The position numbers and the translations under genes are program-made. Below the pieces are notes generated by a model that worked only from the letters and a program-made list of their open reading frames with translations, was not told the DNA's origin and did not search any database. Of a stretch of DNA of 64,000 nucleotides, positions 43,944 through 64,000 are shown one piece after another. The stretch is taken from assembly GCF_025717675.1 (NCBI RefSeq), contig NZ_JAJIRT010000004.1:372001-436000 (forward strand), in the 5' to 3' direction. Within the stretch, counting starts at the first letter, position 1; each line of letters begins with the position of its first letter. The DNA is from Paucibacter sp. DJ2R-2. GTDB lineage: Bacteria; Pseudomonadota; Gammaproteobacteria; Burkholderiales; Burkholderiaceae_C.

Positions 43944-44018
43944 GCGACCGTGGTGAAGTGGATATCATTGGGCCCTCCGAAGGCTTAGGCGCAAGTTCGA
44001 TTCTTGCCGGTCGCACCA
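43944..44018 (+). tRNA. tRNA-Arg (anticodon CCG)
   Basis: The cloverleaf can be drawn in full. The acceptor stem GCGACCG pairs with CGGTCGC. The D arm is GTGA/TCAT. The anticodon stem GGGCC/GGCTT has loop CTCCGAA and anticodon CCG (43977-43979). The T arm is GCAAG/CTTGC with loop TTCGATT. The discriminator A and an encoded CCA follow at 44015-44018. It lies on the left boundary of the Tn7-like element, whose first candidate binding motif begins 34 bp further on. Confidence 0.93.
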
Positions 44019-45686: not shown

Positions 45687-46815
45687 GGCGCTTCTCCAGC
45701 TTGGCCAGCCAGGCTTGCTGCCCTTCTCCAGAGACGAACTCCGCATCGCCATAGCAGGCGTCTCGGAGAGCCTGCTCGCCCTCGGAGATTTCAATCTCAA
45801 TCTGATTGAGCATCTTGTTGGCCTTGAAGGCGCGCTGCACGTCCTTCGAATTGAACTTCTCGCCCTTGCTATGAGTTTGCAGTTGGGCCGCTTGCTGGAG
45901 CTGCGTTTTGAGCAGCCCGACCGAGCCCAACGACGCCATCATCAAATCCCTCCAGGCTGCAGACAGGTTCGGAACGTCCTCGCAGGGCCAGTGAGCTTCG
46001 AACTTGGCCAGCACCTTGCGGAACTCAGCTTCGTCAGCAGTCGGCGCATCGTCCTTCGGGGCGCTGGATAGGTGGTACCGCTTGTAGTGCAGGATTGCGC
46101 CGCGCCGGGCCAGCTGACCGTACGTCGTCATCAGAGGCGCGATCTGATACGTCCCGACCAGCATCAGCTTGGTCTCAGGCTGGATGTCCGCCATGCTTTT
46201 CAGCGTATCCATCATGGCCTCGGTCTGACCGAAACGCAGAAGGTGGTGTGACTCGTCGATGCCGAGCAGTCGAACATTTCGATTGCGAATCTCCGCCTCC
46301 AGCAGCTCCCGACGCTGCGCCACGCCGATCCTGCTGGCGTGCAAGGCGCGGAGTTCGCCGTCGAGCGGGGCATGGCTGCGCTGCTGGTCGGGCAACAGAC
46401 CTCCACATGCATGGTGAAGCCGCGAATAGACGACCTTCCACGACAGCGAACGCTCCCCATTGGCTGGGGCGGAGATGAAGGCGACCGGCACCTCATGAGG
46501 CAGCCGCACGGGTGCATACCGCTGCACGATGGTACGCAGGCATTTGTCGACCAGCGAAGTCTTGCCGATGCCAGTGGGGCCGATGAGCATGATGAGCTTG
46601 ACGTCGTTGTGCGGGTCCATCAGCTCGTGAAGGTGCCGGATGACCGTACGTAGATTTCGATGTTCGAAGCGCAACGACGCGAACCAGTTCAGCCGTTCTT
46701 GTGCGGACAGGCTCATGACTTCCTCGCGAGAGAGGCAGGCCAGATTTGCGGAGCTCCCGATGGCTGCTGCCGCAGCGACGGAATCAGCGGCGTTAGCGTT
46801 GATTTGGGTGTTCAT
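45679..46815 (-). CDS. TnsC/TniB-like AAA+ ATPase of the transposon
   Basis: The 378-residue protein has a Walker A GPTGIGKTS and a Walker B RLLGIDESHHLL, typical of TnsC/TniB transposition regulators. The region after Walker B (DIQPETKLMLVGTYQIAPLM) fits the sensor-1 segment. The protein polymerises on DNA and passes target information from TniQ to the transposase. The start at 46815 (MNTQINANAAD) was chosen because it lies 29 bp after the TnsAB stop. A longer frame has no support. Confidence 0.88.
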   Translation of the reverse strand: MNTQINANAADSVAAAAAIGSSANLACLSREEVMSLSAQERLNWFASLRFEHRNLRTVIRHLHELMDPHNDVKLIMLIGPTGIGKTSLVDKCLRTIVQRYAPVRLPHEVPVAFISAPANGERSLSWKVVYSRLHHACGGLLPDQQRSHAPLDGELRALHASRIGVAQRRELLEAEIRNRNVRLLGIDESHHLLRFGQTEAMMDTLKSMADIQPETKLMLVGTYQIAPLMTTYGQLARRGAILHYKRYHLSSAPKDDAPTADEAEFRKVLAKFEAHWPCEDVPNLSAAWRDLMMASLGSVGLLKTQLQQAAQLQTHSKGEKFNSKDVQRAFKANKMLNQIEIEISEGEQALRDACYGDAEFVSGEGQQAWLAKLEKRRA

Positions 46816-46844
46816 GATGTTTCCTTGTCTTGGAGTCCATTCGA

Positions 46845-49670: not shown

Positions 49671-50914
49671 TTGATTGGACTTTTCTGGTTCGCCGCCTCT
49701 TGCGGCATTGGCTTGTGATGGCCCGCTTCGCTCCCCAGCGTTCAACTGGGAAGTTCGGGCGTGGCTCCGCCCATACCGCCTGAATTGGCGGCAGAACGGT
49801 TGGCGATGAAGATGCAGGGCCCGGCGCCCGGGTCAGGTCAGGCCGGCGGCGGTTGCGGTCGGCATTCGATGGGGCAGTGGTGGCTCAGATCAGGATTCAT
49901 GGTGCAGCGCTCTTGCGATTTGGGGTGAGCTCCGCCCTGACCCACGCAACAAGGGTCATTTGGCGGTAGACAAAGGGGACAGGGGTGCTGAGGTGTCAGG
50001 CCCCTTTTGCTCGCGGCGCTACGGTGGATCCGCTGTGCAGGGAAGGATGATGGTCATGGAAGCGTCCTTGGTGAGACGTCCATGGCCAATACTGCCGGGC
50101 GTCTTGAATGAATTAACGGCACCGCGCCGAAAAGCATGAGGAATATTGCAAGCCAGTGCACAAATAAACCCAAGGAGCTTTATTTGATACCCGCCAGATT
50201 GGCTCACTCACACGAATGCAATATTCGATTTTGGTGTACCAATAGGAATATCAAGAATAGATTTATAAAAATAATCTGAATTCCACGAGACTGAAAAGAC
50301 GTCGGCCATCCCAGCCCTGCTTGTGTCTTTGCAAATCCTGTCCTGCGGATCGCCATTGACGACATGCTAAGAGCATTTTTTGCAGCCCGCAACCGCGCAT
50401 CGCTCATGATTTAATACCGTATTTCTGTAACGGAAACAATGGCTTAGCGAAGCTGGCTCGTATCTCTGTCACGAGTGCTTTTGCCTCCAGCACTTCGCTA
50501 CCAATGGACCGCTCATCACGTCCCAAGTCCTTGACGGGCGGGGCTTTTTGCCAGTTTCTTCCGAGACTTCATATTAGATTTCAGACAGGTGAAGCAAAGT
50601 CAAAAGAGCCTCCCAAAGCCACCGCACGCAGGTTCGTATTTCGGGTACGGATACCGATACGGACACTATCCCGACAAAAACACTCGGCTATTCGGGTGGA
50701 ATTTGGTCGCATGCTGAGTCGCACTTCGATCGAAAAACGAGCGCTCGCGCTCGCGCTGCTGTCGCCAAACCCACGATCTGGCAGGCGTGTGAGTGGGCCG
50801 GTAGTGCGTCAAGCGATCCCAAACGTTGAGCCGACCTGCGCCCCCTCGGCCCAGTCAGATCGAATGCGAGAGGTAATAGTCTTTACAAGACTGGAAGTTG
50901 TTTATCATGGCTAG
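49671..50914. other. AT-richer intergenic region holding the candidate right end
   Basis: Over 1.2 kb without a supported gene. It includes the putative right-end motifs (50081-50197) and an 8-bp inverted repeat CAAATAAA/TTTATTTG at 50161-50186. A clearly AT-rich stretch runs from about 50160 to 50290. Short open frames here have no family resemblance. The last 100 bp must include the promoter of the CARF regulator. I see only a weak TTTACA...TATCAT pair with short spacing. Confidence 0.55.
50081..50197. repeat. Candidate right-end transposase-binding motifs (inverted copies of the left ones)
   Basis: On the minus strand GGCAGTATTGGCCATG (50081-50096) matches left motif GGCGGTATTGCCATG with one substitution and one extra G. 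CTGGCGGGTATCAAATAAAGC spans 50177-50197 (minus strand) and joins both left motifs. The inverted orientation relative to the left side is what a Tn7-like element shows. Confidence 0.5.
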
Positions 50915-52447
50915 ATGGCTGGCAAAAAGTGGCTCATCTCTTGGATCGGCAACGCCGACCACCTAGCGTCAGAGGGGGGCTCTGCCTCCAGCGATGGCCC
51001 AATCGCCACTGCCCTGACCAACTCGCCGAAGTTCGATCGAGTCTGCCTGCTGACCAACTACGCGCATGAGCGCAGCGCCGCCTACTGCGCCTGGCTGGAG
51101 CAACGTTGCAGCTACACAAGCGCCGCGGTCGACCTCCAGGAAATCAGCCTTAGCAGCCCAATCGACTACGCGTCCATCTACGAGCAGGTCAGCAAGCACC
51201 TCAAGAATCTTGGCCTTCCTCGGTCAGACGTTGAACTCACTTTCCACCTGAGCCCAGGAACTCCCGCCATGGCGGCCATCTGGATCATGTTGGCCAAGAC
51301 GCGCTTTCCCGCTAAGTTGATTCAGACTTCCAAGGAGCAAGGTCTGGAATCGGTGGACTTTCCCTTCGACCTGGCCAGTGACTTCCTGCCCGAGTTCCTT
51401 CAACGCAGTGCCGAGCGGATTGAACGGCTCTCCCAAGGCCCCGTCGAAAGCGCCCCGCAGTTCAGCAAGATCCTTCATCGCAGCGATGCCGTCCGTCAGC
51501 AGGTGCACCTCGCCCGGCGCATCGCAGCCCACGACGTTCCGGTCTTAATTCTTGGCGAGACCGGCACAGGCAAGGAACTCTTCGCCGAAGCGATCTGTGC
51601 CGCAAGTGAGCGTGCCAGCAAACCATTCATTGCCGTCAACTGCGGAGCCCTCTCGCCCGAGTTGGCCAACTCAGAGTTGTTTGGCCATGTCATAGGAGCG
51701 TTTACAGGCGCGACCAAAGCAAGAAAGGGACACTTCCAAGAAGCGCAAGGCGGCACCCTGTTCCTCGATGAAGTCGGTGATCTGCCACCGGAAACCCAGG
51801 TACGACTGCTGCGCGTGCTCCAAGCCAAAGAAGTCACGCCGCTAGGAGACTCGAAGCCAGTCAAGGTAGACGTCCGGATCGTCGCCGCCACGCATCGCGA
51901 CCTTGCCGCAGATGTCGCCTCGGGGCGTTTCCGCGAGGACCTGTTCCACCGCTTGGCTGTCGGCATCTTGCGCTTGCCGCCTCTGCGCGAGCGTGATGGC
52001 GATGTCGACCTGCTAGCCGACGCCTTCCTTGACAAGATCAATGCCGATGCCAAGGGGAAACCAGAAACGCAAGAGAAGAAACTTTCCACAAGTGCAAGGA
52101 AACTTCTCGAACAGTATCCGTGGCCGGGCAACATTCGCGAGCTTTACCACTCACTACTTCGGGCTGCGATTTGGTCGACCGGGCCGGTCATACAGGCTGA
52201 AGATGTGCAGGCAGCTCTGCTGCAGGTTCGGCAGCAGGGCCATGATTCAATCCTGAAGCCACTGGGCCAAGGCTTTGATTTGCAAGGCATTTTGGATGAC
52301 GTCTCGCGCGACTACATCGCCAAAGCACTGAACCGGTCGGGCGATCGGAAGACGGTGGCAGCCAAGATGCTGGGGTTCGCCAATCATCAAACGCTGGGCA
52401 ATTGGATGAAAAAACTGGGACTGGAAAGCAGCGACACTAAAGACTAG
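50915..52447 (+). CDS. CARF-like sensor fused to sigma-54 AAA+ activator (RtcR-like)
   Basis: The 510-residue protein has three parts. Residues 1-165 are a CARF-type Rossmann sensor (KKWLISWIGNADHLA, DGPIATAL, FDRVCLLTNY, HLSPGTPAMAAIW). Residues 185-430 are a sigma-54 AAA+ domain with Walker A GETGTGKE (214-221), the sigma-54 contact loop GAFTGA (261-266) and Walker B TLFLDEVGD (281-289). Residues 455-505 form a Fis-type helix-turn-helix (DRKTVAAKMLGFANHQTLGNWMKKL). It resembles RtcR, where the CARF domain senses damaged tRNA. It precedes a sigma-54 promoter and hsdR, so it is likely their activator. Confidence 0.85.
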   Translation: MAGKKWLISWIGNADHLASEGGSASSDGPIATALTNSPKFDRVCLLTNYAHERSAAYCAWLEQRCSYTSAAVDLQEISLSSPIDYASIYEQVSKHLKNLGLPRSDVELTFHLSPGTPAMAAIWIMLAKTRFPAKLIQTSKEQGLESVDFPFDLASDFLPEFLQRSAERIERLSQGPVESAPQFSKILHRSDAVRQQVHLARRIAAHDVPVLILGETGTGKELFAEAICAASERASKPFIAVNCGALSPELANSELFGHVIGAFTGATKARKGHFQEAQGGTLFLDEVGDLPPETQVRLLRVLQAKEVTPLGDSKPVKVDVRIVAATHRDLAADVASGRFREDLFHRLAVGILRLPPLRERDGDVDLLADAFLDKINADAKGKPETQEKKLSTSARKLLEQYPWPGNIRELYHSLLRAAIWSTGPVIQAEDVQAALLQVRQQGHDSILKPLGQGFDLQGILDDVSRDYIAKALNRSGDRKTVAAKMLGFANHQTLGNWMKKLGLESSDTKD

Positions 52448-52455
52448 AGGGAGGC

Positions 52456-52471
52456 TGGCACGGTTCTCGCA
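52456..52471 (+). promoter_or_regulatory. Sigma-54 (-24/-12) promoter upstream of hsdR
   Basis: TGGCACGGTTCTCGCA matches the consensus TGGCACGNNNNTTGCA at all but one conserved position. GG at 52457-52458 and GC at 52469-52470 have the required 10-bp gap. The transcription start would fall near 52482, so an ATG at 52483 would be leaderless and the real hsdR start is probably 52507. Confidence 0.82.
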
Positions 52472-52506
52472 AAACAACAGGCATGAATGCCACGAGAGCC
52501 GGCCAG

Positions 52507-55500
52507 ATGTTGATGCAAGATATTAAATCGCTGAACTTCGAGCCGCTGCGTGCGGTCTACCCGGAGCTCGCCAATATGGGCGGGTACGCGGAGCATTACG
52601 CGCACACCGACCCGGAAAGCGCACTCGTCAAGCTGCGCAACTTCGCCGAACGTCTGGTCGACCGCGTTTACCTGAAGTTGAAGCTCGAACGAGCCCCTCA
52701 GTCCAACTTCGTCGATTTGCTGCACAACGCCAGCTTCAGGGAGATCGCCCAACCCCTGGTTCTCGACAAGCTGCACCTGCTGCGCCGCCTCGGCAATCGC
52801 GGCGCCCATGGCGAGGACGTTGAGGCCACTGACTCGCTGCGTTGTGTGCAAGAGGCCTGGCAGCTTGCTCGCTGGCTCCATGTGACCTTTCTGGGCGGCA
52901 AGGTCGACGACTTTTCAGATTTCAAGCAGCCCCCAGCGGAAGGCATCGACAGCAAAGCTGAGATCAAGCGCAAAGCGAAAGCGCTGGCTGAAGAGAACAG
53001 CATCAAAGAAGAGCGGCTCAAGCAAGCTCTTCAGGAACTCGCTGAGTTGCGAGCTGCTGATCGCGCCGCAACACCGCCGACAGCCCCTGGCACCTCGCCC
53101 ACTGTCGAAGCACTGGTGCAAGTCGGCCAAGCCTCCACTCAGGTCGCCAGTCAGCTGCGCTTCAGCGAAGACCACACCCGCAAATGGCTGATTGACCGCG
53201 ACCTGCGCATGGCCGGTTGGGATGTCCCGCCGGGTACTGCCAGCAACGAATCCGTCAGCCAGGAATTCGAGGTTTCGCATCAGCCGACTGCAAGCGGCAC
53301 AGGCTATTGCGACTATGTGCTCTGGGATGACAACCGCAAGCCCCTGGCGGTTGTGGAGGCCAAGAAGACCCGTGTTGATGCCCGAACCGGGCAGGAGCAA
53401 GCCAAGCTCTATGCCGATGCGCTTGAGAAGGATTACGGCCAGCGGCCCATGATCTTCTACACCAACGGCCACGACATCTGGGTCTGGGACGACGCGGGCG
53501 GCTATCCGCCTCGCTCAGTGTTCGGCTTCTACTCCAAGGACACGCTTCAATACCGTATCGGCTTCCAGCGCCGGGAAAAACTCGACCTGCTCAAGGACGT
53601 CCGGCCCGACGCCAAGATCGCCGGCTACCTTCACCAAATCGAGAGCATCACGCGCGTTGCCGAGCGTTTCAGCCAGCGCCACCGCCGTGCGCTGGTGGTT
53701 CAAGCCACCGGCACCGGCAAAACTCGTGTGGCCATCGCCCTGGCCAAGCTCTTGATCGACGCACGCTGGGTCAAGCGTGTGCTCTTCCTGTGCGATCGCA
53801 AGGAGCTGCGCAAGCAAGGCAAGAACGCTTTCAACGAACACGTCAAAGAACCGATCTACGTCATCGGGCAGGCCAATGACGTGGGCAAGATGGATGCCCG
53901 CATCTACATCGGCATCTACCAAGGCCTGATCAACGACTACGAGTCCTTCGACGTCGGTTTCTTCGACCTGATCATTGCCGATGAATCGCACCGCTCGATC
54001 TACAACCTCTACGGCGATCTTTTCAAGTACTTCGACGCCCTCCAGGTTGGCTTGACCGCCACGCCGGTCGAGATGGTCAGCCGCAGCACCTGCCAACTTT
54101 TTGGCTGCGACTACAAATTGCCCACGGCCAACTACCCCTTGGAGCAGGCCATTGCCGACCGCAAGCTCGTGCCCTTCAAGGTGGTCGCCCATACGACCAA
54201 GTTTCTGCGTGACGGCATCAAGGCGGCGTATCTCAGCGACGAGCAAATCGCTCAGCTGGAAGACCAAGGCTTCGATCCCAATGAGCTGGAGTTCGACGCC
54301 CAGGAAATTGACGAGGCCGTTTTCAACAAGGACACCAACCGCGTCATCCTGCGCAACTTGATGGACAAAGGCATCCGCGATGCCGACGGTCAGCTCCCGG
54401 GCAAGACCATCGTCTTCGCCCGCAAGATCGAGCATGCCCGTCTATTGGCCGACCTCTTCAATGAGATGTACCCGCAGTTCGCCGGCAAGTTCTGCCGAGT
54501 GATCCACTCCAAAGAGCCGCGGGCCGAGGACCTGATTGATCAGTTCAAAGACCCAGCGAGCGATCTACGCATTGCTGTCTCAGTGGACATGCTGGACACC
54601 GGCATTGATGTGCCCCAAGTGGTGAACCTCGTCTTCGCCAAGCCGGTCAAGAGCAAGGTGAAGTTCTGGCAAATGATTGGCCGCGGCACGCGCCTTTGCG
54701 AAAACCTGTTCGGCCCCGGTCTCCACAAGAGCGAATTCCTGATCTTCGACCACTGGAATAACTTCGAATTCCATGAGCTCAACGCCGACGAGGTCGAACC
54801 CACGGTACCCAAGCCGCTGACGCAGCGTCGCTACGAGGCCCGTATTGAACTCGCAGCCTTGGCCCTTGCCAGGTCCGACATTGCGGCATTCGATGCGCTT
54901 GCGTTGCAGCTCCAGCAAGACGCCGCTGCACTGCCCGACGGCGGCATCGCCGTGCGCGAGAACTGGCAAGCCGTGAATCAGGCCCGTGACGCCAAACTGG
55001 TCCACCATTTCGCCCCCGTCACCCGGCAACTATTGACCGACATCGTCGCGCCCCTGATGAACGCACTGGATGTGCGCGGTCAAGGCGATGCCCTGCGCTG
55101 GGACCTTCTGCTCGCCAAGGCCCAAGCAGCGGCGATCTCTGCGCCAGGGAAGCCCAATGCCCATCGCGATGCGATTTTGGAATGGGTCGACCGCCTACCG
55201 CCGCATCTGAACCCGGTGCGCGCCAAAGCGAATGAGCTCAGAACCATCCGCTCCGATGCGTTCTGGCAAGCCCCAAGCTTCGCCGATCTGGATGCCATGC
55301 GCGCTGCCCTGCGCGACCTGATGGAGCTGGCCGACGCCCCCGTGACGCCTCCGCCTAAGCCTGTGGTGCACCTGGATATTCGCGAGGATGAAGCCGAGTA
55401 CCAAGTTCATTTGCGGCCAACCAAGATCAAGTCGGTTGACTTCGGCATCTACCGCAAGGCCGTGCAATCGGCCCTGGAACCATTGTTCGAAACCGACCCG

Positions 55501-55932
55501 GTTCTGCTCAAGCTGCGCCGTGGCGAGCTCATCACGCCCGAAGAGTTGGACAAGCTCAACAGCCTGCTGCACACCCGCAACCCCGATGTGGACCTGTCCA
55601 CACTGCGTGAGTTCTACCCCGACACAGCCGTGCAGCTAACGCAAATTCTGCGCGGCATTGTTGGCATGGACCACGAAGCCGTGGATCTGCAGTTCTCCAC
55701 CTTCGCCCAAGCCCATGCCCTCAATAGTCAGCAACTGCGTTTCCTCGCGCTGCTGAAGGACCACATCCGCCAGTTTGGCGCCATCGCCGTCGGGCAATTG
55801 TTCGATGCTCCTTTCAACACCGTCCATGCCGAAGGCTTGGGTGGTGTCTTTCCCAATCAAACGCAACTAGACGAAGTCGTGCGCATGGTGCGTGCCTTCG
55901 GCGAACCCTTGCAGCCGCCTGCGGCACACTGA
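52507..55932 (+). CDS. hsdR: Type I restriction enzyme R subunit (HsdR), with N-terminal DUF4145
   Basis: The protein has about 1141 residues. An N-terminal DUF4145-like helical domain holds the RRLGNRGAHG motif. It is followed by a coiled region, a nuclease domain (D277, E292, K294 counted from a 52483 start; GYCDYVLWDD, LAVVEAKKTR) and a DEAD-type translocase with Walker A ATGTGKT and IIADESHRSIYNLYG. The C-terminal third resembles EcoEI-type R subunits. It translocates and cuts unmodified DNA with HsdM and HsdS. I prefer start 52507 over 52483 because of the sigma-54 transcription start. Confidence 0.92.
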   Translation: MLMQDIKSLNFEPLRAVYPELANMGGYAEHYAHTDPESALVKLRNFAERLVDRVYLKLKLERAPQSNFVDLLHNASFREIAQPLVLDKLHLLRRLGNRGAHGEDVEATDSLRCVQEAWQLARWLHVTFLGGKVDDFSDFKQPPAEGIDSKAEIKRKAKALAEENSIKEERLKQALQELAELRAADRAATPPTAPGTSPTVEALVQVGQASTQVASQLRFSEDHTRKWLIDRDLRMAGWDVPPGTASNESVSQEFEVSHQPTASGTGYCDYVLWDDNRKPLAVVEAKKTRVDARTGQEQAKLYADALEKDYGQRPMIFYTNGHDIWVWDDAGGYPPRSVFGFYSKDTLQYRIGFQRREKLDLLKDVRPDAKIAGYLHQIESITRVAERFSQRHRRALVVQATGTGKTRVAIALAKLLIDARWVKRVLFLCDRKELRKQGKNAFNEHVKEPIYVIGQANDVGKMDARIYIGIYQGLINDYESFDVGFFDLIIADESHRSIYNLYGDLFKYFDALQVGLTATPVEMVSRSTCQLFGCDYKLPTANYPLEQAIADRKLVPFKVVAHTTKFLRDGIKAAYLSDEQIAQLEDQGFDPNELEFDAQEIDEAVFNKDTNRVILRNLMDKGIRDADGQLPGKTIVFARKIEHARLLADLFNEMYPQFAGKFCRVIHSKEPRAEDLIDQFKDPASDLRIAVSVDMLDTGIDVPQVVNLVFAKPVKSKVKFWQMIGRGTRLCENLFGPGLHKSEFLIFDHWNNFEFHELNADEVEPTVPKPLTQRRYEARIELAALALARSDIAAFDALALQLQQDAAALPDGGIAVRENWQAVNQARDAKLVHHFAPVTRQLLTDIVAPLMNALDVRGQGDALRWDLLLAKAQAAAISAPGKPNAHRDAILEWVDRLPPHLNPVRAKANELRTIRSDAFWQAPSFADLDAMRAALRDLMELADAPVTPPPKPVVHLDIREDEAEYQVHLRPTKIKSVDFGIYRKAVQSALEPLFETDPVLLKLRRGELITPEELDKLNSLLHTRNPDVDLSTLREFYPDTAVQLTQILRGIVGMDHEAVDLQFSTFAQAHALNSQQLRFLALLKDHIRQFGAIAVGQLFDAPFNTVHAEGLGGVFPNQTQLDEVVRMVRAFGEPLQPPAAH

Positions 55933-55967
55933 CGCAGCGATAACAACAACAAAGAAGTAGTACAGCC

Positions 55968-57509
55968 ATGATCACAGGCGCACTGAGAAGCCGTATCGAC
56001 AGTCTCTGGACCGAATTCTGGACCGGCGGCATCACCAACCCGCTCACCGTCATCGAGCAGATCACCTTCCTGATGTACAGCCGCCTGCTGGACATGCAGG
56101 AGCGCACCCAGGAAAAGCGCGCAGCCCTCACCGGCAAGCGAGAAGCCAGCCTGTTCAGCGAAGAGGATCAAAGCTGCCGCTGGGAAACCTGGCGTCACTA
56201 CGGGGGCGCTGAAATGCTGCCCCATGTGCGTGACCGCGTGTTCCCGCACTTCCGCCGCCTTGCCGAGCGCAGCACGGGCGAAGGCAGCCATTTCGCCGCC
56301 TTCATGAAGGACGCGCAGCTGATGATTCAAAAGGAGTCACTGCTGGTGAAGGCCGTCAGCGCAGTGCACGAACTGCCGCTGGAACAAGGCGACACCAAGG
56401 GTGATCTCTACGAGTACCTGCTCGGCAAGCTCACCACGGCCGGCATCAACGGCCAGTTCCGTACGCCGCGCCACATCATCCGCATGATGGTGGAGTTGAT
56501 GCAGCCCCAGCCCACTGATCGCATCTGCGACCCGTCCTGCGGCACCGCTGGCTTCTTGATCGAGTCCTACGACTACCTCTTGCGTGAGCACAGCAGCGCC
56601 GCCGGCACGCACAAAGAAGTTGTGGAAGGCGAAGAGCACATCAGCTACAGCGGCGATCTGCTCGGCGAGCATCGCAAACATATCGACAGCGATATGTTCC
56701 ACGCCTACGACTTCGACGCCACCATGCTGCGCATCGCCACCATGAACCTGGTGATGCACGGCGTGAAGCAGCCCGATGTCCATTACCAAGACACCTTGAG
56801 CCAGAGCTTTGAGGAACGCCACCCCAAGGGCTCCAAGAACGCCTTCGACCTCATCCTCGCCAACCCACCGTTCAAAGGCAGCCTGGACGAGCAAGACGTG
56901 GCCCCGGACATCCTGCGCACCGTTAAGACCAAGAAGACCGAGTTGCTCTTCATTGGCCTGATCCTGCGTATGTTGAAACTCGGCGGCCGCAGTGCAACCA
57001 TCGTGCCGGACGGCGTGCTTTTCGGTTCCAGCAAGGCGCACGTGCAACTGCGCCAGCACTTGATCGAGAACAACCAGCTCGAGGCCGTGATTTCGCTGCC
57101 CTCGGGCGTGTTCAAGCCCTACGCCGGCGTGTCCACTGCCATCATCATCTTTGCGAAGGGTGGCAAGACCGAGAACGTGTTCTTCTACGACGTTCAGTCG
57201 GATGGCCGTACGCTGGATGACAAACGTACTCAGATCGGTGACGGGTCAGGCGATATGCCCGATGTGAAGGCCAAGTTTCTGCAATGGTGCGAGGGCAAGG
57301 GTGATTTCAGTGATCGGACGGCCAAAGCGTTTGAAGTGACTGCTGATGACATACGGGCGCAGAGTTATGACTTGTCTATCAATCGACATAAAGAGCAAGT
57401 GCATATCGCTGAAACACACGACGCACCTGCGGCCATCGTCGCCAAGTTGCGTCACCTGGAGACGGCGATACAAAGAGAGCTAACGGATCTGGAAGACTTG
57501 TTGAAATGA
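55968..57509 (+). CDS. hsdM: Type I DNA methyltransferase subunit (HsdM)
   Basis: The 513-residue protein has the N-terminal helical HsdM domain (LWTEFWTGGITNPLTVIEQITFLMYSRLLDM), the SAM-binding motif DPSCGTAGF (188-196) and the catalytic motif NPPF (299-302, ILANPPFKGS), so it is an N6-adenine methyltransferase. It follows hsdR by 35 bp and its stop overlaps the hsdS start (ATGA). The gene order R-M-S on one strand is unusual only in that the promoter is sigma-54 type. Confidence 0.96.
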   Translation: MITGALRSRIDSLWTEFWTGGITNPLTVIEQITFLMYSRLLDMQERTQEKRAALTGKREASLFSEEDQSCRWETWRHYGGAEMLPHVRDRVFPHFRRLAERSTGEGSHFAAFMKDAQLMIQKESLLVKAVSAVHELPLEQGDTKGDLYEYLLGKLTTAGINGQFRTPRHIIRMMVELMQPQPTDRICDPSCGTAGFLIESYDYLLREHSSAAGTHKEVVEGEEHISYSGDLLGEHRKHIDSDMFHAYDFDATMLRIATMNLVMHGVKQPDVHYQDTLSQSFEERHPKGSKNAFDLILANPPFKGSLDEQDVAPDILRTVKTKKTELLFIGLILRMLKLGGRSATIVPDGVLFGSSKAHVQLRQHLIENNQLEAVISLPSGVFKPYAGVSTAIIIFAKGGKTENVFFYDVQSDGRTLDDKRTQIGDGSGDMPDVKAKFLQWCEGKGDFSDRTAKAFEVTADDIRAQSYDLSINRHKEQVHIAETHDAPAAIVAKLRHLETAIQRELTDLEDLLK

Positions 57510-58687
57510 ACCGGCTTGTTCAACTAAGCGATGTCGCCCTCGTGTTCAACGGCAAGACACCCGCTCGCGTAGATCAGAGACAGGGCGGGCACCCAGTTTT
57601 GAAAATCAAAGACGTGAATTCCCTCGGGCGTTTCGCTGGCAGCTTCGAATCATTTGTTGATCATGAATTTGCGGCAAGATTCTCTGAAAAACTAGTTGAG
57701 GTTGGCGATACTCTAATCCTCAACGCCGCGCACAACGCCGACTATGTAGGCTCAAAGTCGTATTTGGCAGAGCCAAGCGTAGTTGGCAGTCTGCCAACTG
57801 GTGAATGGCTTGTGGTCAGAGCTATGCAGCACTGCACCGATGCTCGTTTCATCCATCATTGGATTACAAGCGCTCGGATTCGACAAAGGCTTCGGGACCA
57901 AGTAAAGGGGATTCATCTCTACCCAAAGGACGTTGCTGCATTGCCCGTGCTGCTGCCGTCGTTGCATGAGCAACAGCGCATCGCCGCCATCCTCGACAAG
58001 GCCGACAGCCTGCGCCGCAAACGCCTAGAAGCCATCCGCCTCGCCGACGAATTCCTTCGGGCTGCCTATTTGGACCTCGCCACGAAGCACCCGGACCGAG
58101 CTTCGGTTGACAGTGTCCTCGCATCCATTCCTAACGCAGCGAGGACGGGACCCTTCGGCAGTCAGTTACTCGTTTCAGAGTTCACCGAATCGGGCATCCC
58201 AGTCCTCGGGATCGACAACGTTGTCTCCAACTCATTCACCTGGGGCGCACGCCGATTCGTCTCACCTGAGAAGTACAAGGAACTAGAGCGATACACCGTT
58301 CGCCCTGGGGATGTCATGGTCACGATCATGGGCACCACAGGTCGGGTCGCAATCGCACCTGAGGATTTGCCTGTTTGCATCAGCACAAAGCATCTGTGCA
58401 CGCTGTCGCTTGATCAGCAGAAGATGCGGCCTTCCTATTTATGGGCTTGCTTGCGCTGGGACCCAGAAGTCCGGGCACAGACTCAGCGCGAATCAAAGGG
58501 CGCCATCATGGAAGGATGGAACATGGGCATTGTGAAGGGCTTGATGGTCAGCAAGCCGCCGATGGAAGCGCAACTTAAGTTCGAGGCGCTGCTAGCGAAG
58601 ATCACCCAGTTTTCCCAGAACGCAGGCAGCGCTGCAGATCAGACGGATGCTTTGGTAGCTTCACTTTCAGCTAAGTACTTCAGTTAG
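57506..58687 (+). CDS. hsdS: Type I restriction specificity subunit (HsdS)
   Basis: The 393-residue protein has two target-recognition domains (residues about 1-150 and 190-350), separated by the conserved central helix region (LPVLLPSLHEQQRIAAILDKADSLRRKRLEAIRLADEFL). A shorter distal conserved helix is seen near the C terminus. The N-terminal domain begins with VQLSDVALVFNGKTP. It fixes the DNA sequence recognised by the complex; the target cannot be read from sequence. It overlaps hsdM by 4 bp. Confidence 0.93.
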   Translation: MNRLVQLSDVALVFNGKTPARVDQRQGGHPVLKIKDVNSLGRFAGSFESFVDHEFAARFSEKLVEVGDTLILNAAHNADYVGSKSYLAEPSVVGSLPTGEWLVVRAMQHCTDARFIHHWITSARIRQRLRDQVKGIHLYPKDVAALPVLLPSLHEQQRIAAILDKADSLRRKRLEAIRLADEFLRAAYLDLATKHPDRASVDSVLASIPNAARTGPFGSQLLVSEFTESGIPVLGIDNVVSNSFTWGARRFVSPEKYKELERYTVRPGDVMVTIMGTTGRVAIAPEDLPVCISTKHLCTLSLDQQKMRPSYLWACLRWDPEVRAQTQRESKGAIMEGWNMGIVKGLMVSKPPMEAQLKFEALLAKITQFSQNAGSAADQTDALVASLSAKYFS

Positions 58688-58719
58688 CCCATCTCTGTCT
58701 GATTGCACTTGCCTAAACC

Positions 58720-58914
58720 ATGGCTTCATTGATCAAGTCACTCTCGCTCAAGAACTTCAGAGGTTTCCCTTGTGGGACTTTGATGGGCCACAGACGCTGC
58801 CAGCCCAATGGTCTCAGCTTTCAGATCGACCCGCCAGAGCTAAGGCTTCACGCAGCCCCGCGCATCTCAATGCAGAGTGCAGGACTCTCACAGTGCAAGG
58901 CGTTCTTTATGTAA
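58720..58914 (+). pseudogene. Possible truncated AAA (RecF/AAA15-like) ATPase N-terminal fragment
   Basis: The first residues MASLIKSLSLKNFRGF resemble the start of AAA15/RecF-type ATPases (IKSLSLKNFRGF), but a P-loop does not follow. The sequence becomes unrelated after about 16 residues and stops at 64. I read it as a remnant of a gene replaced during module exchange rather than a working protein. The region to 58985 contains a good RBS only for the next gene. Confidence 0.4.
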
Positions 58915-58985
58915 CTAACCGTATAGTCACTTTGTGCTGGAACTAACCTCCAGCGACCCACCGACAGATATCAGGGAGGAAAGCG

Positions 58986-60737
58986 ATGGCAGCAAAGACT
59001 GCACGCTTTCAAGTTGATTCGAGGTTGGCTCGTTTGTTGAGCCAGGAATACTCGTCGACTGAGAAAGCACTCAAGGAACTGGTCGACAACGCCTGGGATG
59101 CGGACGCCGAGAACGTTCACATCTCGCTGCCGGCGCCGATGACCGATGCGCCTATCGTCATTTCGGACGATGGCTCCGGCATGACGCGGGCCGAGCTCGA
59201 ATCGCACTACCTGGCCATCGCTCGAGATCGGCGAGTACATCGAGGTGAGAGAACTGCAGGCAAGCAACGCTTGGTCAAGGGGCGCAAAGGCATCGGCAAA
59301 TTTGCGGGCTTGATGGCTGCCGCCGAGATGACCCTCGAGACCCGCACGCGAGGCACACTCAGCCGCTTCACGCTACGGATGGCGGACCTCGCTGGCGTTG
59401 AAGATATCGAGCACTTGCCGATTCAAATCGATACCGAGCGTAGCGACCCGGAGTCACACGGCACCACCATCACGCTGCGCACCCTCCACGGTGAACTGGC
59501 CTTCCCGGATGCAGCCAGGATGCGCCAAGCCCTGATTTTTGAGTATGGCCGGTCGGCGGACTTCACTGTCTACGTGGATGGGAAACTGCTCGGCGTCGAC
59601 GATGTTGTTGGCACCTACACCGACCAGACGGTGGATGTCTCCGGTGTCGGCCCCGTCCAGCTTCGGTTTGCGATTGCCGAAGAGCGATCGGCCCATCGAC
59701 AGGCGGGCATCGTGTTGCGGGTGGACGGCAAGGTGGTTGGAAAGCCGTCCTTTTTTGGCCTTGAAGAGCGGGAAGACTTTCCGCAGAAACTGAAGTCCAA
59801 GCTGTACGGTGAGGTCCAGGCTGACGGTCTGCGCGACCATGTGACGGCGGGCTGGGATAGCGTGATCGAAAACAGCAGCCTGCTTTCTGCGGTCACCGAG
59901 CAAGTACAGCCCATCCTGATCGCGGCTTACAGGGAGCGATACCGTCGCGAGATTCAGCTGGCGCAGGCTCGGATCAGCCGTTCAATCAAGGACCGGCTTG
60001 CAGCGATGCCTGAGCATCGCCGCGAGTTCGCCGACAAGGCGGTGCGCCGCGCGCTGGAACGCTTCTACGGCGAAGAGCCAACCAAGCTTGAGCAATACGT
60101 TTATGTGTTGCTCGAGGCCATCGAGCACGTTGAGTACGGCGCAGTCCTGTCTCACATCCACGATGCCTCGCGAAAAGACGTTGTAGCCATCTCGGCAGCG
60201 CTTGACGAGTTCGGCATGGCCGACATGGCCACTTTGGTTACCCAAGCTAAAGCGCGCATGCAGTTCCTTGACGAGTTGGAAGCGCTTGCACGAGCGCCCG
60301 AGACGCGTGAGGCCGAGATGCACAAGGCGATCGAGCGCAACCTGTGGATTCTGGGCGCGACCTACACCTTCTTCCGCTCCAACCAGACGCTCAAGCGAAC
60401 GGTGGAAGAGGCGCTAGGGCGCAAGTACCAGGGCGCCAAGGCGGCTGAGCGCCCCGACCTGGTGCTGAATGAAGACCTCAACGGTTCGTGCCTGCTGATT
60501 GAGTTCAAGCGCCCATCACATGCACTGAACCACGAGGACTACCTCCAGGCCATCAGCTATCGGCATGAGCTGTCGAAGCACATGACCAAACCTATTCGAG
60601 TGATGCTGATGGGAGGAAGGAGATCGCCGGACTTCCCAACGATGCAGCGCGAAGCTGAGGTGGAAGCACTTGCCTTTTTCGATGTGATTGCATCGGCGCG
60701 AAGGGCAATCGACTGGCAGCTTTCAGCCCAGCATTGA
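58986..60737 (+). CDS. GHKL-type ATPase fused to a PD-(D/E)XK nuclease domain (Shedu-like)
   Basis: The 583-residue protein has an N-terminal Hsp90/MORC-like ATPase: N box ELVDNAWDAD (N35), G1 box ISDDGSGM (D61-D62) and G2 box GRKGIGKFAG (G102-K105). After a central region with helices, the C terminus (about 440-583) carries KAIERNLWILGATYTFFRSN, then D491 (RPDLVL), E506-K508 (LLIEFKRP) and Q521 (YLQAISY). This is the DUF4263/Shedu nuclease arrangement. A strong GGGAGGAAAGCG site precedes the ATG. It is likely a defence effector whose ATPase may gate the nuclease. Confidence 0.8.
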   Translation: MAAKTARFQVDSRLARLLSQEYSSTEKALKELVDNAWDADAENVHISLPAPMTDAPIVISDDGSGMTRAELESHYLAIARDRRVHRGERTAGKQRLVKGRKGIGKFAGLMAAAEMTLETRTRGTLSRFTLRMADLAGVEDIEHLPIQIDTERSDPESHGTTITLRTLHGELAFPDAARMRQALIFEYGRSADFTVYVDGKLLGVDDVVGTYTDQTVDVSGVGPVQLRFAIAEERSAHRQAGIVLRVDGKVVGKPSFFGLEEREDFPQKLKSKLYGEVQADGLRDHVTAGWDSVIENSSLLSAVTEQVQPILIAAYRERYRREIQLAQARISRSIKDRLAAMPEHRREFADKAVRRALERFYGEEPTKLEQYVYVLLEAIEHVEYGAVLSHIHDASRKDVVAISAALDEFGMADMATLVTQAKARMQFLDELEALARAPETREAEMHKAIERNLWILGATYTFFRSNQTLKRTVEEALGRKYQGAKAAERPDLVLNEDLNGSCLLIEFKRPSHALNHEDYLQAISYRHELSKHMTKPIRVMLMGGRRSPDFPTMQREAEVEALAFFDVIASARRAIDWQLSAQH

Positions 60738-60905
60738 ATGGGCACTCTGGGAGCCGATGAAGTGAATACGGCCGTTGATTCGTTGCGGAAATTTTTCCAG
60801 GCGAGCGGTGCGTTGCTGTTCAGCCACCGCACCGCCAATGCCGCCTACCTTGACCTTGACCGCGCTTTCCAATGCACTGGCATAACAAGTTCTTGGCGCG
60901 GCTAA
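60738..60905 (+). CDS. Small open reading frame directly after the GHKL-nuclease gene
   Basis: The ATG follows the TGA of the previous gene without a gap (TGAATG), giving 55 residues (MGTLGADEVNTAVDSLRKFF ...). The composition is normal for the island, but I see no known domain. It could be a coupled small protein or a remnant. Confidence 0.3.
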   Translation: MGTLGADEVNTAVDSLRKFFQASGALLFSHRTANAAYLDLDRAFQCTGITSSWRG

Positions 60906-61032
60906 TTGCATGCCATCCTTACAGAAGTTTGGGCTTCTCGTCCGCCAAGGCGAGGTCCCGTTACCAGCCTTGGCTTGAGATCGTCGAGTCACACTGCGCC
61001 GCAAATGCGGCCCGCTACTCCTAGAAGATGCA

Positions 61033-61536
61033 ATGGACGTTCTGTACTACTGGAAAGACTACGAGTCTGACATTCGCCAAGGCCGCATCGGCTACTTCCG
61101 ATCTTCCAAGGACAAGCTCGACGAGCTGCAACAGCGATCCCCGGATGACATCTGGGTGGTGAAGACGCCACGCGGGAGCAAAGGGCAACTGCAGTTGTTG
61201 GGGCGCCTGGCTTGGGCGGACTCGCCAACGACGAAAGTTCTGGCGGCTCCTGGCGACAGCCTGATCCACTACCAGCCGGACCATCCGCGGTCTGTGTGGT
61301 TCGACGAGGGGCTTGCGCTGCAGCACCTTGACGAGGTAACGGCTTGGTTGCGCGCTCACCAACCCAGCAGCGTTCGAGCCAACTTCCAGGGGGCCAACGG
61401 CCAGTTGGCCATCGAGCAATCAGCGTCGTTGGAACTAAGGAGACTGACCGCCCGATGGCCCAGCCTGCCATTCAAGGATGCCGTGAGTAATAAAAAGTTT
61501 GCGGATTCCGCAAACAATTTTCCGCAATCCTCATGA
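61033..61536 (+). CDS. Uncharacterised protein, possibly PUA/EVE-like
   Basis: The 167-residue protein begins MDVLYYWKDYESDIRQGRIGYFRSSKDKL and contains DDIWVVKTPRGSKGQLQLLGRLAWAD. Aromatic-rich N termini with this W-F-IWVxKTP pattern recall PUA-like domains (EVE, ASCH) that bind modified bases, but this is a weak resemblance. The C-terminal 15 residues overlap the palindrome at 61497-61515. It lies between the GHKL-nuclease gene and the sigma-54 promoter at 61588. Confidence 0.55.
   Translation: MDVLYYWKDYESDIRQGRIGYFRSSKDKLDELQQRSPDDIWVVKTPRGSKGQLQLLGRLAWADSPTTKVLAAPGDSLIHYQPDHPRSVWFDEGLALQHLDEVTAWLRAHQPSSVRANFQGANGQLAIEQSASLELRRLTARWPSLPFKDAVSNKKFADSANNFPQSS
61497..61515. promoter_or_regulatory. 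Perfect palindrome, candidate activator or repressor site
   Basis: GTTTGCGGATTCCGCAAAC is a perfect 9-bp-arm palindrome with a 1-nt centre. A further half-site TTCCGCAA lies nearby at about 61520-61527. Its distance of about 75 bp from the sigma-54 promoter is in the range for enhancer sites. I did not find the same palindrome before hsdR. Confidence 0.5.
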
Positions 61537-61587
61537 GGCCTGCTTGTAAGTCATTGATTTATTTAGGACAAGGACGACTCCTTGCTC

Positions 61588-61603
61588 TGGCACGGCATTC
61601 GCA
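61588..61603 (+). promoter_or_regulatory. Second sigma-54 (-24/-12) promoter, before the DUF4258 gene
   Basis: TGGCACGGCATTCGCA has GG at 61589-61590 and GC at 61601-61602 with the required 10-bp gap. It shares TGGCACGG and TCGCA with the hsdR promoter. The predicted start near 61614 leaves a 25-nt leader before the ATG at 61639. Confidence 0.82.
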
Positions 61604-61638
61604 ATATGTCGAGTGTCAGCCAACCTTGGAGTCTCCCC

Positions 61639-61980
61639 ATGAGCCAGCGCCTAAAAGAGAACCAGCTACTTGATCGCAAGCCCGAAATGAGCAGTCACGC
61701 AGAGATCAGGATGCAACAACGTGGAATTCAACGGACCGACATCGAACTGGCGATTCAGTACGGCAGGCGCATCCATGCCAAGGGGCTCACCTACTACGTG
61801 ATCGGGCGCAAAGAAGTCAAGCTACTGGCCCAACAGGGGCAGAACATCTCGGGCCTCTCGGGCTTGCAGGTTCTGGTTCAAGAGGAACTGGTGGTCACCA
61901 CCTATCGCAACACCGATTTCCATGCCATTCGCACCACGGTGCGGGACAAGCGCCGCATGCGGTTGCGGCACCGGCACTGA
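61639..61980 (+). CDS. DUF4258-domain protein
   Basis: The 113-residue protein has the DUF4258-like core (SSHAEIRMQQRGIQRTDIELAIQYGRRIHAKGLTYYVIGRKEVKLL ... VVTTYRN). Members often sit in toxin-antitoxin or mobile regions and are thought to be small RNase-like proteins. The start at 61639 follows a GGAG site and the predicted sigma-54 transcript start, which decides it over upstream Met codons. It is the first gene of the operon that leads to the vWA-PP2C-kinase triad. Confidence 0.7.
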   Translation: MSQRLKENQLLDRKPEMSSHAEIRMQQRGIQRTDIELAIQYGRRIHAKGLTYYVIGRKEVKLLAQQGQNISGLSGLQVLVQEELVVTTYRNTDFHAIRTTVRDKRRMRLRHRH

Positions 61981-62164
61981 CGCTTCCGCAAGCACTGGAC
62001 GAGGGGCATTTCTGCCGGGCAAACATCAGAGCCCGAGATGCGTATTGATCCGAATTCGAGACATCCAACAGGGGATTAAAGACATGGGTTTTGCAAGCTA
62101 CGACGAAGACATACAGAGCCGCTTCTTTCAAGCAACTCGCATCAGGGAAAAGGAACACGAGGCC

Positions 62165-62863
62165 ATGAAAAACGAACCTGCAACCGCCACCAAACTGAAA
62201 GCTTTTGCTGCCCCGCAACCGCGGCCGCTTCCCATCATCGTGCTGGCTGACACCAGTGGCAGCATGGCCGAGAACGGCAAGATCGACGCCCTCAACGTCG
62301 CCCTCGGCCAGATGATCAAGAGCTTCGCGCAAGAGTCACGACTGCGTGCCGAGATCCAGGTCGGGCTCATCACCTTTGGTGGACGGGAGGCGCAGCAATA
62401 CCTGCCTTTGGTGGCTGCGCAGCGCATCGAGGGCATGCAGGCGCTTCAGGCCTCAGGCGCTACGCCCATGGGATCGGCGTTCACATTGGCGCGCACACTG
62501 CTGGAGGACAAGGTCTTGGTGCCCTCGCGAGCCTACCGCCCTGTGGTGGTGCTGGTGTCTGACGGCGAACCAAACGACGACTGGGAAGCGCAGCTGGAGG
62601 CACTCAAGACTTGCGAGCGCGGTAGCAAGGCCTCGCGGTTTGCCCTAGCCATTGGCGCAGATGCCGATCGGGACATGCTGGCGCGCTTTGCCAATGACCG
62701 TGAGGCGCCTGTATTTGAGGCTCATGAAGTGCGCGACATCGTGCGCTTTTTCCGCGCAGTGACCATGAGCGTGGTGGCTCGCTCATCCAGCGCCACACCA
62801 GACCAGCCCGTCGGACTGGAGCTGGACGCGGCGCTGGATGACCTCGATCTGGACGCACTGTAA
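62165..62863 (+). CDS. vWA-domain protein (TerY-like)
   Basis: The 232-residue protein is a von Willebrand factor A domain with an intact MIDAS: DTSGS (29-33, LADTSGSMAEN), GATPMGSA and VSDGEPNDD. It resembles TerY-like proteins, which form a triad with a PP2C phosphatase and a protein kinase. The start at 62165 (MKNEPATATK) gives a typical short N terminus. An ATG at 62084 would add 27 residues. The next gene starts directly after its TAA. Confidence 0.83.
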   Translation: MKNEPATATKLKAFAAPQPRPLPIIVLADTSGSMAENGKIDALNVALGQMIKSFAQESRLRAEIQVGLITFGGREAQQYLPLVAAQRIEGMQALQASGATPMGSAFTLARTLLEDKVLVPSRAYRPVVVLVSDGEPNDDWEAQLEALKTCERGSKASRFALAIGADADRDMLARFANDREAPVFEAHEVRDIVRFFRAVTMSVVARSSSATPDQPVGLELDAALDDLDLDAL

Positions 62864-63601
62864 TTGGCAACGAGAGCGACGACGCTGCGAGCAGCTGGGG
62901 CCTGCGTGACAGGGCCCGCGCATCGCGCTCAGGGTACCCAGGGTCAGGATGCGCTGCAGTTGCGCGGATGGCGCGGCGGCTGGATCGCTGCGGTGGCCGA
63001 TGGCCTGGGCTCGCGTGCGCACAGCGCCACAGGCGCGCGTCTGGCGGTGAAGGTGGCCCAGCAGGTAGCAAGAGATTGGCCTGCTCGGAGCTGGCTTGAG
63101 GTGTCGGCGCGCGAGGTTGCGACAGACATCTATCGTCGCTGGCTGGCAGCAGTGCCATGGGCTGACAAGGGACTCGCGGCTACCACCCTGCTGCTGGTGG
63201 TCTGCGACGCCGCAGGGCGTGCACGCACTTGGCAGATTGGTGACGGTCTGGTGCTGCTGTGTACGCAAGGCATGGCTCAGCCTTTGACCCCCGCGCGAGA
63301 TGGCTTCGGCAATCAGACGCGCGCCCTAGGCGTGGACCGGGCCTGGGCAGCCTGGCACACGGCTGACTTCGCGCTGAAGGAACCGGGCGACATGGTGCTG
63401 CTGATGACGGATGGCGTGGCCGACGACCTTTTGCCAAATGCCCTTGGCGGTTTCGCCAGCGCAGTGCGTCGAGACTTGGCGTGCAGAAGCCGGCGCGGGG
63501 GGCGGCGATGGCTGAACCACGAACTTACCCACTGGGCGACGCCGCTTCATGGCGATGACAAGACGCTGGCAGCGGTGTTCAAGGAAGAGAGATGCGGATG
63601 A
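62864..63601 (+). CDS. PP2C-family protein phosphatase
   Basis: The 245-residue protein is read from a TTG right after the vWA stop. The PP2C motifs are VTGPAHRAQGTQGQDAL, AVADGLGSRAHSATGARLAV (metal-binding Asp in VADG), AATTLLLVVC, TWQIGDG and LLMTDGVADDL. It would remove phosphate from the kinase or its targets. The stop overlaps the kinase start in ATGA, so the pair is coupled. Confidence 0.85.
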   Translation: MATRATTLRAAGACVTGPAHRAQGTQGQDALQLRGWRGGWIAAVADGLGSRAHSATGARLAVKVAQQVARDWPARSWLEVSAREVATDIYRRWLAAVPWADKGLAATTLLLVVCDAAGRARTWQIGDGLVLLCTQGMAQPLTPARDGFGNQTRALGVDRAWAAWHTADFALKEPGDMVLLMTDGVADDLLPNALGGFASAVRRDLACRSRRGGRRWLNHELTHWATPLHGDDKTLAAVFKEERCG

Positions 63602-64000
63602 CGGACAAGACAGAGACGGCTGCGCGCAAGAAGAAGCAGTTTGTGGTGGATGAGCAAGGTACTCAGCACGAACTGGGACTGAAGTTGGCCGAGGGCGGCG
63701 AGGGGATCGTGCTGCGCATTGCCGGAGATGCGAGACGCCTTGTGAAGGTCAGCCGCTGGCCCGATGCCGACGAGCGTACACAGCGCTGGCGCCGGCGCAT
63801 CGAATCCGTTCGCCGGATGCCCATCTTGGAGAACCGATTGCCGATCGCCATGCCACAGACGCTGATCATCAAGCCGCGCGCGGGCTATGTGATGGAGTTG
63901 ATGGATGGGCTGATCCCACTTGAGGAATTGCTGAGCCAGGCTCACGAGGCGTTTCTGAAAGACCAGGGAGCTGCCGGTTATGTCGCCTCAGGCGGACTGG
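63598..64000 (+). CDS. Protein kinase of the TerY-P-like triad (3' part outside window)
   Basis: The visible 134 residues start with a Lys-rich N terminus. They contain a glycine loop (KLAEGGEGIVLRI) followed by a Lys in LVKVSRW, which would be the ATP-binding Lys, and the hinge-like YVMELMDGLIPLEELL. The catalytic loop is beyond the right edge. The order vWA-PP2C-kinase is that of the TerY-P triad. Overlap with PP2C is 4 bp. Confidence 0.75.
   Translation, partial: MTDKTETAARKKKQFVVDEQGTQHELGLKLAEGGEGIVLRIAGDARRLVKVSRWPDADERTQRWRRRIESVRRMPILENRLPIAMPQTLIIKPRAGYVMELMDGLIPLEELLSQAHEAFLKDQGAAGYVASGGL

Follow-up and report, generated by a model that had tools for sequence, protein, structure and literature searches.

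Does one sensor switch on DNA restriction and an RNA-targeting CoCoNuT system side by side, or is the second reached by transcription running on from the first? The question is raised by a defence island in a 64,000-nt stretch of DNA (hereafter the window; G000:C29:372001-436000) from the 5.8-Mb, 47-contig genome of Paucibacter sp. DJ2R-2, where an rtcR-like gene precedes type I restriction genes (hsdRMS) and the first genes of a CoCoNuT operon. A preliminary description of this DNA had proposed that a single sigma-54 activator controls both sets of genes. From comparison of related loci we consider it likely, with a probability of roughly 0.75, that one activator serves several parallel promoters, each built from an upstream activating sequence (UAS), in some cases a site for integration host factor (IHF), and a sigma-54 -24/-12 site, and that the first enhancer is embedded in the activator's own gene. 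The features that carry this argument are as follows.

50915-52447, plus strand: rtcR-like gene, encoding a sigma-54 activator with CARF-like, AAA+ (GAFTGA) and HTH domains, of the RtcR_PspF2 subfamily (PADLOC PDLC01995, Pfam)
52076-52108, plus strand: UAS1, enhancer-like element in rtcR codons 388-398, AAGAAACTTTCCACAAGTGCAAGGAAACTTCTC (synonymous-codon conservation peak; matrix)
52268-52280, minus strand: IHF consensus AATCAAAGCCTTG in rtcR codons 452-456 (perfect WATCAANNNNTTR)
52456-52471, plus strand: P1, sigma-54 -24/-12 site TGGCACGGTTCTCGCA, which starts 9 nt past the final base of the rtcR stop
61492-61524, plus strand: UAS2, second enhancer-like element, with the perfect palindrome GTTTGCGGATTCCGCAAAC at 61497-61515 and A/T flanks (coding-trained matrix); begins 96 nt before the -24 box of P2
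61547-61559, minus strand: IHF consensus AATCAATGACTTA between UAS2 and P2 (perfect consensus)
61588-61603, plus strand: P2, sigma-54 -24/-12 site TGGCACGGCATTCGCA

The regulator is the CARF-like AAA+-HTH protein that the preliminary description had recognized. The PADLOC subfamily profile matched it at full length (residues 4-504, E 1.8e-198), Pfam gave matches to RtcR (PF06956, 28.8 bits against a cut-off of 23.1) and Sigma54_activat (1.1e-66), HTH_8 stayed below its cut-off, and GAFTGA is present in the sequence. The NCBIfam model for canonical RtcR, the regulator of rtcBA, scored 354.5 bits against a cut-off of 650. In a structural model (mean predicted local distance difference test score 72.8, predicted template modelling score 0.48), strands and helices alternate in residues 4-147. 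All 50 PDB matches listed for this model are activators, matched mainly via their AAA+ domains, and a PDB sequence search with the N-terminal domain returned only weak matches, to Caskin-1 and an ion channel. The genome also carries rpoN.

The sigma-54 and IHF consensus sequences and the matrix weights that we used are general background. The sigma-54 consensus alone is insufficient, because a loose pattern with one mismatch allowed is no rarer in the window than in shuffles (18 matches versus a shuffle mean of 19.7); the sole exact matches are P1 and P2. The core common to P1 and P2, TGGCACGGNNNTCGCA, occurs exactly twice in the 5.8-Mb genome, both times in the island and correctly oriented, and the reversed pattern, searched as a control, occurs once. 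Hence, the two promoters that had been proposed, at hsdR and before the DUF4258-vWA-PP2C-kinase genes, are the only core matches in the genome. P2 sits 35 nt before the DUF4258 ATG (61639), and P1 11 nt before the first hsdR ATG (52483), with transcription predicted to start at about 52482, counting 12 nt from the C of the P1 -12 element. Since P1 and this predicted start are so near the first ATG, translation of hsdR more likely begins at the in-frame ATG 52507, at whose counterpart relatives such as G591 begin the gene.

We then asked how widely this arrangement occurs. With a threshold of E <= 1e-128, and in genome sets that overlap, RtcR_PspF2 genes turned up in 7 of the 399 genomes searched from the order, 5 of 299 of the same family, and in the families of G249 (15/237), G494 (4/117), G091 (1/36) and G574 (2/195); such genes were also found in seven plasmids and in 11 of the best 80 genome-contig loci. 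A class-level search, for which the limit was too loose, returned 259 of 369 genomes, and seven of the matches listed stand out from generic activators. We compared 48 regions and kept 43, including that of DJ2R-2, with at least 40% identity and a near-full rtcR. L055 and L059 (truncated rtcR) and G122, G685 and G413 (below 40% identity) were dropped before counting; G833, G921 and G966, which are partial matches, and G1310, which has the same 282,640 bases as Vitreoscilla plasmid L147, were left out.

A P1-type site, defined as scoring at least 11 within -45 to +60 of the rtcR stop, is present in 34 of the 43 loci versus 4 of 706 other open reading frame (ORF) stops; at a score of at least 13 the counts are 30/43 and 2/706. 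The site lies 1-9 nt after the stop in 27 of the 34 P1-bearing loci. The next gene is hsdR-like in 30 of these, encodes a vWA protein in three (G881, G934 and Rhodoferax) and has no assignment in one (L153). Three loci (G1302, G881 and L149) have a longer rtcR C-terminus that puts the sigma-54 site inside the coding sequence, and the distance between UAS and promoter is thereby kept (359 or 379). On an Azotobacter plasmid (L150:21490-26460), where hsdM is annotated in small pieces and hsdR matches fall in two, P1 and the coding element are kept.

A comparison of words shared by the 200 nt upstream of P1 and of P2 gave nothing convincing and was abandoned; it failed because UAS1 lies further upstream, inside rtcR. 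Synonymous-codon agreement across the 43 loci shows two peaks in rtcR, at codons 386-399 and 451-457, and the 6-codon excess elsewhere is at most about 0.11. The first peak reads roughly AArAAAATTTCy-N6-GCAArAAwnTT in DNA, and its TTTC-N7-GCAA element lies 355-391 bp upstream of the sigma-54 site. A matrix trained without the DJ2R-2 locus gave UAS1 36.4 bits; such leave-one-out matrices omit the locus itself but not its close relatives. Because canonical RtcR was found in only 4 of 229 genomes, too few for a synonymous control, hsdM, hsdR and 45 paralogous activators served as controls. Over 10 codons, the highest excess in rtcR is 0.299 (0.375 when only the 27 loci with hsdM are taken), versus 0.208 in hsdM, 0.169 in hsdR and 0.079 in the paralogues; over 6 codons it is 0.349 (0.441 in hsdM loci), versus 0.319, 0.243 and 0.112. 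Of the 34 P1-bearing genes that encode Ala at position 394, 33 use GCA for it, versus 2 of 8 without P1 (Fisher p 3.6e-5, uncorrected for relatedness), and GCA makes up 375 of 1760 other Ala codons in P1-bearing genes. The element recurred, at scores of 22-45, in 14 of 17 later-added loci (all but G1344, G1540 and G1026) that were kept out of matrix building, some of which are relatives of loci used. Thirteen of these 14 have P1 at or near the stop; the fourteenth, G902, has a decayed P1 and inverted hsdRMS.

Does the same element stand before P2? A matrix trained solely on the rtcR coding elements of other loci, applied to both strands of 34.5 kb, ranked the rtcR element first (36.4), UAS2 second (16.6) and the next match far below (1.9); with the final training set UAS2 scored 13.5. 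In 12 of the 43 loci, the top match that is not in rtcR precedes a sigma-54 site by 55-150 nt, compared with a mean of 2.33 and a maximum of 5 for 60 column-permuted matrices, and the spacing is 96-99 in seven of the 12. In one of the 12, L050, the match is weak; it lies upstream of rtcR and precedes a site on the minus strand. The other 11 loci have the element beyond rtcR at 86-121 nt from the sigma-54 site that follows it. The pairs stand at CoCoNuT starts in DJ2R-2, Polaromonas, Motiliproteus and G303, at a DruH3-like module in G591, and also in G1344 and G1302; in G934 the pair is upstream of rtcR and directed away from it, and the last three of the 11 are G902, G879 and G807, whose pairs are described below. 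Their UAS scores run from 21.5 to -6.5 (L056). By sequence, each of P1 and P2 thus combines a -24/-12 site with a shared UAS, the pattern recurs in other genomes, and the proposal of one regulon is upheld to that extent. These elements, their conservation and their spacing are read directly from the DNA.

Further matches touch on the extent of the regulon. UAS-sigma-54 pairs precede ASCH-domain genes at L177:1844-2839 (G879), where SbcD- and SbcC-like genes follow, and at L187:14906-15868 (G807); these are a possible further module. UAS-like matches about 40-85 nt upstream of rtcR in G420 (14.1 bits) and in G934 (21.5, in AT-rich DNA) may point to autoregulation or to a target transcribed divergently. 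We rejected a regulon outside the island of DJ2R-2: TTTGC-N7-GCAAA, the exact form to which the genome-wide search was confined, occurs at seven places, and only that at P2 has a positive matrix score and a sigma-54 site of at least 10 within 260 nt.

The second rtcR peak is a perfect minus-strand IHF consensus in 12 of 43 loci, where synonymous shuffles lead one to expect 1.0 (maximum 4 in 200). Between UAS and promoter outside rtcR, the IHF consensus is perfect in 5 of 12 pairs versus 1.25% in shuffled spacers (11 loci, with G902 counted twice and L050 left out).

If the coding element serves P1, loci without P1 are informative. Eight loci lack P1, and the element is weak or lost in six of them, kept in G902 and intermediate in L148. 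Without P1, G303 and Polaromonas have a UAS and a promoter between rtcR and the first CoCoNuT gene, and G1344 has a weaker UAS, an IHF site and a promoter there; G189 has a weak sigma-54 site (11.3) before DUF4258. In G1540 the next module is inverted, the rtcR element is degraded and a strong sigma-54 site (18.4) lies just before the module, where we saw no convincing UAS. G902, which looks like a recent inversion, has kept the coding element beside its decayed P1, and its hsdR has a UAS and promoter of its own. At 13.45-13.9 kb past the rtcR stop of G902, one UAS lies between divergent sigma-54 sites, toward the inverted hsdRMS and an SbcD-like gene. Thiocystis (L053; convergent CoCoNuT, contig ends) and G1026 are without the coding element, and we found no site at their rtcR stops. 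A sigma-54 site lies within 400 nt of all eight CoCoNuT starts found, three of these sites being P1 itself, against a background of 0.13 per kb per strand. Among Druantia-III-like modules, three of eight have one within 1500 nt.

We infer binding, sigma-54 dependence, the signal and the order of expression from these patterns, as follows. The regulator, a CoCoNuT-associated RtcR-like activator, would bind the UAS (TTTC/TTTGC-N7-GCAA with flanking A/T tracts) through its HTH; IHF would bend the DNA at loci having an IHF site; and the AAA+ ring would open sigma-54 RNA polymerase at each -24/-12 site. P1 would drive hsdRMS, and perhaps the GHKL gene behind it, with an enhancer and IHF site supplied from inside the rtcR frame, and P2 would drive the DUF4258-TerYP-CoCoNuT operon via the compact set just upstream. 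Phage or RNA damage, as the preliminary description supposed, could furnish the signal; if RtcR is a guide, this may consist of RNA ends bearing 2',3'-cyclic phosphate, or it may be another nucleotide. One signal acting at two separate promoters would therefore switch on DNA restriction and RNA-targeting CoCoNuT in parallel, not sequentially along one transcript. On balance, we also favour viewing the rtcR-like gene as a self-contained switch cassette. Within its frame would lie the enhancer for the promoter at its stop, together with the IHF site in some lineages; modules landing behind it would come under its control, and further modules would bring their own compact UAS-(IHF)-sigma-54 sets. 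Restriction and CoCoNuT modules, joined in some loci by Druantia-III-like or SbcDC-like ones, would then make up a single regulon that the sensor triggers in parallel.

Several results weigh against this reading. Between the GHKL gene and P2 we found no terminator-like site in the forward direction, and the remaining five of the eight Druantia-III-like modules are without a sigma-54 site within 1500 nt. Second UAS-promoter pairs occur in a minority of loci, and some are weak (G1344 2.2, G1302 0.3, L056 -6.5). The close relatives G926 and G923 score 17.8 and 14.7 at places where no promoter is near, which shows that the matrix yields false positives. The enhancer distance of 355-391 nt inside rtcR exceeds the 86-121 nt seen outside it, and the 6-codon margin of the rtcR element over hsdM is small. 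At the IHF-like coding peak the excess is 0.149 (0.198 in hsdM loci), no more than the 0.208 that hsdM reaches in its best window, so the case for this peak rests on its content, and its perfect consensus is confined to the 12 loci mentioned; coverage of the spacers by IHF sites is likewise partial. Helical phasing of the distances was suggestive, with a period of 11 (p 0.005 for 20 loci, 0.22 for 13 with relatives thinned), and we dropped it as a main claim.

The missing terminator would allow read-through from P1, and the genes are co-directional. The island could thus be a single superoperon, with restriction first, CoCoNuT later by read-through and internal promoters independent of RtcR, the echeloned model proposed in the available text of Bell 2024 (PMC11090510); the Druantia-III-like modules lacking a site of their own fit this too. 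We regard it as unlikely, since P2 shares both its core and its UAS with P1, the inverted modules of G902 and G1540 have their own sigma-54 sites, and in L056 a distant CoCoNuT start has a sigma-54 site 9 kb from rtcR, albeit with a weak UAS match. Should the conserved rtcR codons instead reflect a constraint on protein, codon usage or RNA, the sigma-54 sites would act via another site. The peptide KKISxxA[RK] is itself conserved, and one hsdM window comes close to rtcR in 6-codon excess; against this, the signal is synonymous and absent from the paralogous activators, the element recurs before sigma-54 sites outside rtcR, and it is weak or lost in most loci without P1, all of which make such a constraint improbable as the explanation.

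The palindrome at P2 also scores as a minus-strand terminator-like hairpin, and at least nine further sigma-54 activators are encoded in the genome; the palindrome might be a terminator or the operator of another regulator, with P2 answering to a different activator. We give this little credence, given that the flanks and N7 spacing of UAS2 match the rtcR element, that the next match in the scan falls from 16.6 to 1.9, and that six other loci have their best matches at this 96-99 nt spacing too. Finally, hsd methylase genes generally need basal expression, as would be provided if the modules were expressed constitutively from sigma-70 promoters and the sigma-54 promoters were relics. The conservation of P1 in 34 of 43 loci makes this very improbable; a scan of 58500-62000 found no sigma-70-like site, a weak result because the shuffle mean is 1.0.

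How much of this has been described before? The preliminary description took the combination to be undescribed, and this proved wrong. The available text of Makarova 2014 (PMC4012209) predicts that RtcR-like CARF-AAA-HTH proteins beside restriction-modification genes are sigma-54 activators of downstream genes, DNA restriction included, and that they may sense 2',3'-cyclic-phosphate RNA or a phage nucleotide; that text makes the same prediction of sigma-54 activation as we do and identifies no promoter or enhancer. PMC11090510, in its available parts, describes loci with RtcR, type I restriction-modification, BrnT-like, TerYP and CoCoNuT genes. The island resembles its type II CoCoNuT superoperons, with the NxD motif of the GTPase and a HEPN-type RxxxxH motif present here. 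Those parts picture a superoperon with RtcR-independent internal promoters and gene order as a timer, and mention UAS only in general, naming no sites, whereas here both modules carry the same sigma-54/UAS set. As in RtcR-rtcBA of E. coli and Salmonella (PMC9650030, PMC7790460 and PMC9879122, in the text available), there is a CARF-like AAA+-HTH activator, a sigma-54 promoter and a UAS, with IHF in E. coli, but the rtcBA layout is divergent and intergenic; K-12 rtcR-rtcB DNA has no match to the UAS matrix of this locus. The intragenic sigma-54 promoters of Nla28 in Myxococcus have activator sites inside the coding sequence of an upstream gene, as here, and the accessible text of PMC7910581 describes none that lies in the gene of the activator itself or belongs to a defence locus. 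Our literature search, which mostly did not reach subscription literature, turned up neither these promoters nor this UAS, and no case of such a regulator carrying an enhancer within its own gene. Both the combination of genes and the general idea are already in print; the new part is the cis-regulatory layout. The published guess that CARF activators control restriction via sigma-54 thereby becomes a set of named, mutable sites. The layout challenges the view that DNA restriction is made to precede RNA-targeting CoCoNuT by the order of the genes on one transcript and, if correct, an enhancer in the activator's own frame would explain how cassettes move and capture new modules.

The genes of the island, all on the plus strand, are the following.

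52483-55932: hsdR, longest ORF (ORF call, Pfam)
55968-57509: hsdM (ORF call, Pfam)
57506-58687: hsdS (ORF call, Pfam)
58986-60737: GHKL ATPase with a nuclease-like C-terminus and a BbrUII/HgiDII-like N-terminal match (Pfam, PADLOC; NCBIfam matches all below equivalog cut-offs)
61033-61536: 167-aa ORF of no assigned function (relative beside GHKL in G1302)
61639-61980: DUF4258 (BrnT-like), first gene of the CoCoNuT operon (PF14076; start codon picked downstream of P2)
61922-62863: TerY-like vWA gene, longest ORF (Pfam; PADLOC TerY E 1e-4)
62864-63601: PP2C phosphatase (Pfam)
63592-64000, running past the window end: Ser/Thr kinase with a C-terminal Cys cluster (profile search of contigs beyond the window)

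Pfam cut-offs were passed by hsdR, hsdM, hsdS, the GHKL ATPase, DUF4258, vWA and PP2C; the SduA_C nuclease-like match of the GHKL protein, at 23.9 bits, is just under its cut-off of 27. The vWA gene probably starts after 61980. The vWA, PP2C and kinase genes are adjacent, as in a TerY-P triad, and the triad named in the preliminary description is therefore present; it is just the start of a longer operon. The kinase Cys cluster is at residues 324, 331, 343 and 346, and a zinc ribbon was seen in this form only. Past the window, CnuH, CnuE, CnuB and CnuC follow (L009:15032 to L010:10111). CnuH is a UPF1-like superfamily 1 helicase with AAA_11 and AAA_12 matches, located in the operon as type II CoCoNuT requires. 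CnuE (520 aa) has the RxxxxH motif RNKGSH at 483 and a winged helix-turn-helix profile match below cut-off. CnuB is a McrB-like GTPase with a coiled-coil-type match, a Walker A motif at 513 and the shortened NxD motif NQDE at 647. CnuC has a weak McrC/DUF2357 match (PF09823, E 0.005, below cut-off) and is homologous by position and sequence to the Polaromonas and Rhodoferax copies, the latter annotated DUF2357. Judged by gene content, the operon very probably belongs to the type II CoCoNuTs, by the definition in the available text of PMC11090510.

The 167-aa ORF matched no family in Pfam, PADLOC or NCBIfam scans. It has a relative beside the GHKL gene in G1302 (47%), and four Caballeronia and Paraburkholderia plasmid records contain matches to it (27-31%); the relative in G1302 is without the last ~15 codons, which here hold the UAS2 palindrome. 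To the left of the island, Tn7-like tnsB, tniB and tniQ genes lie on the minus strand (44229-49745), with a tRNA-Arg (ccg) nearby at 43944-44018, and the island may be cargo of a Tn7-like element. Weak TnsB-like matches (~27% identity) are found in the regions of two more loci, G1059 and L057. Beyond the window, about 3.5 kb past CnuC, a gene at L010:13617-17636 encodes an nSTAND1-WD40 protein of 1339 aa.

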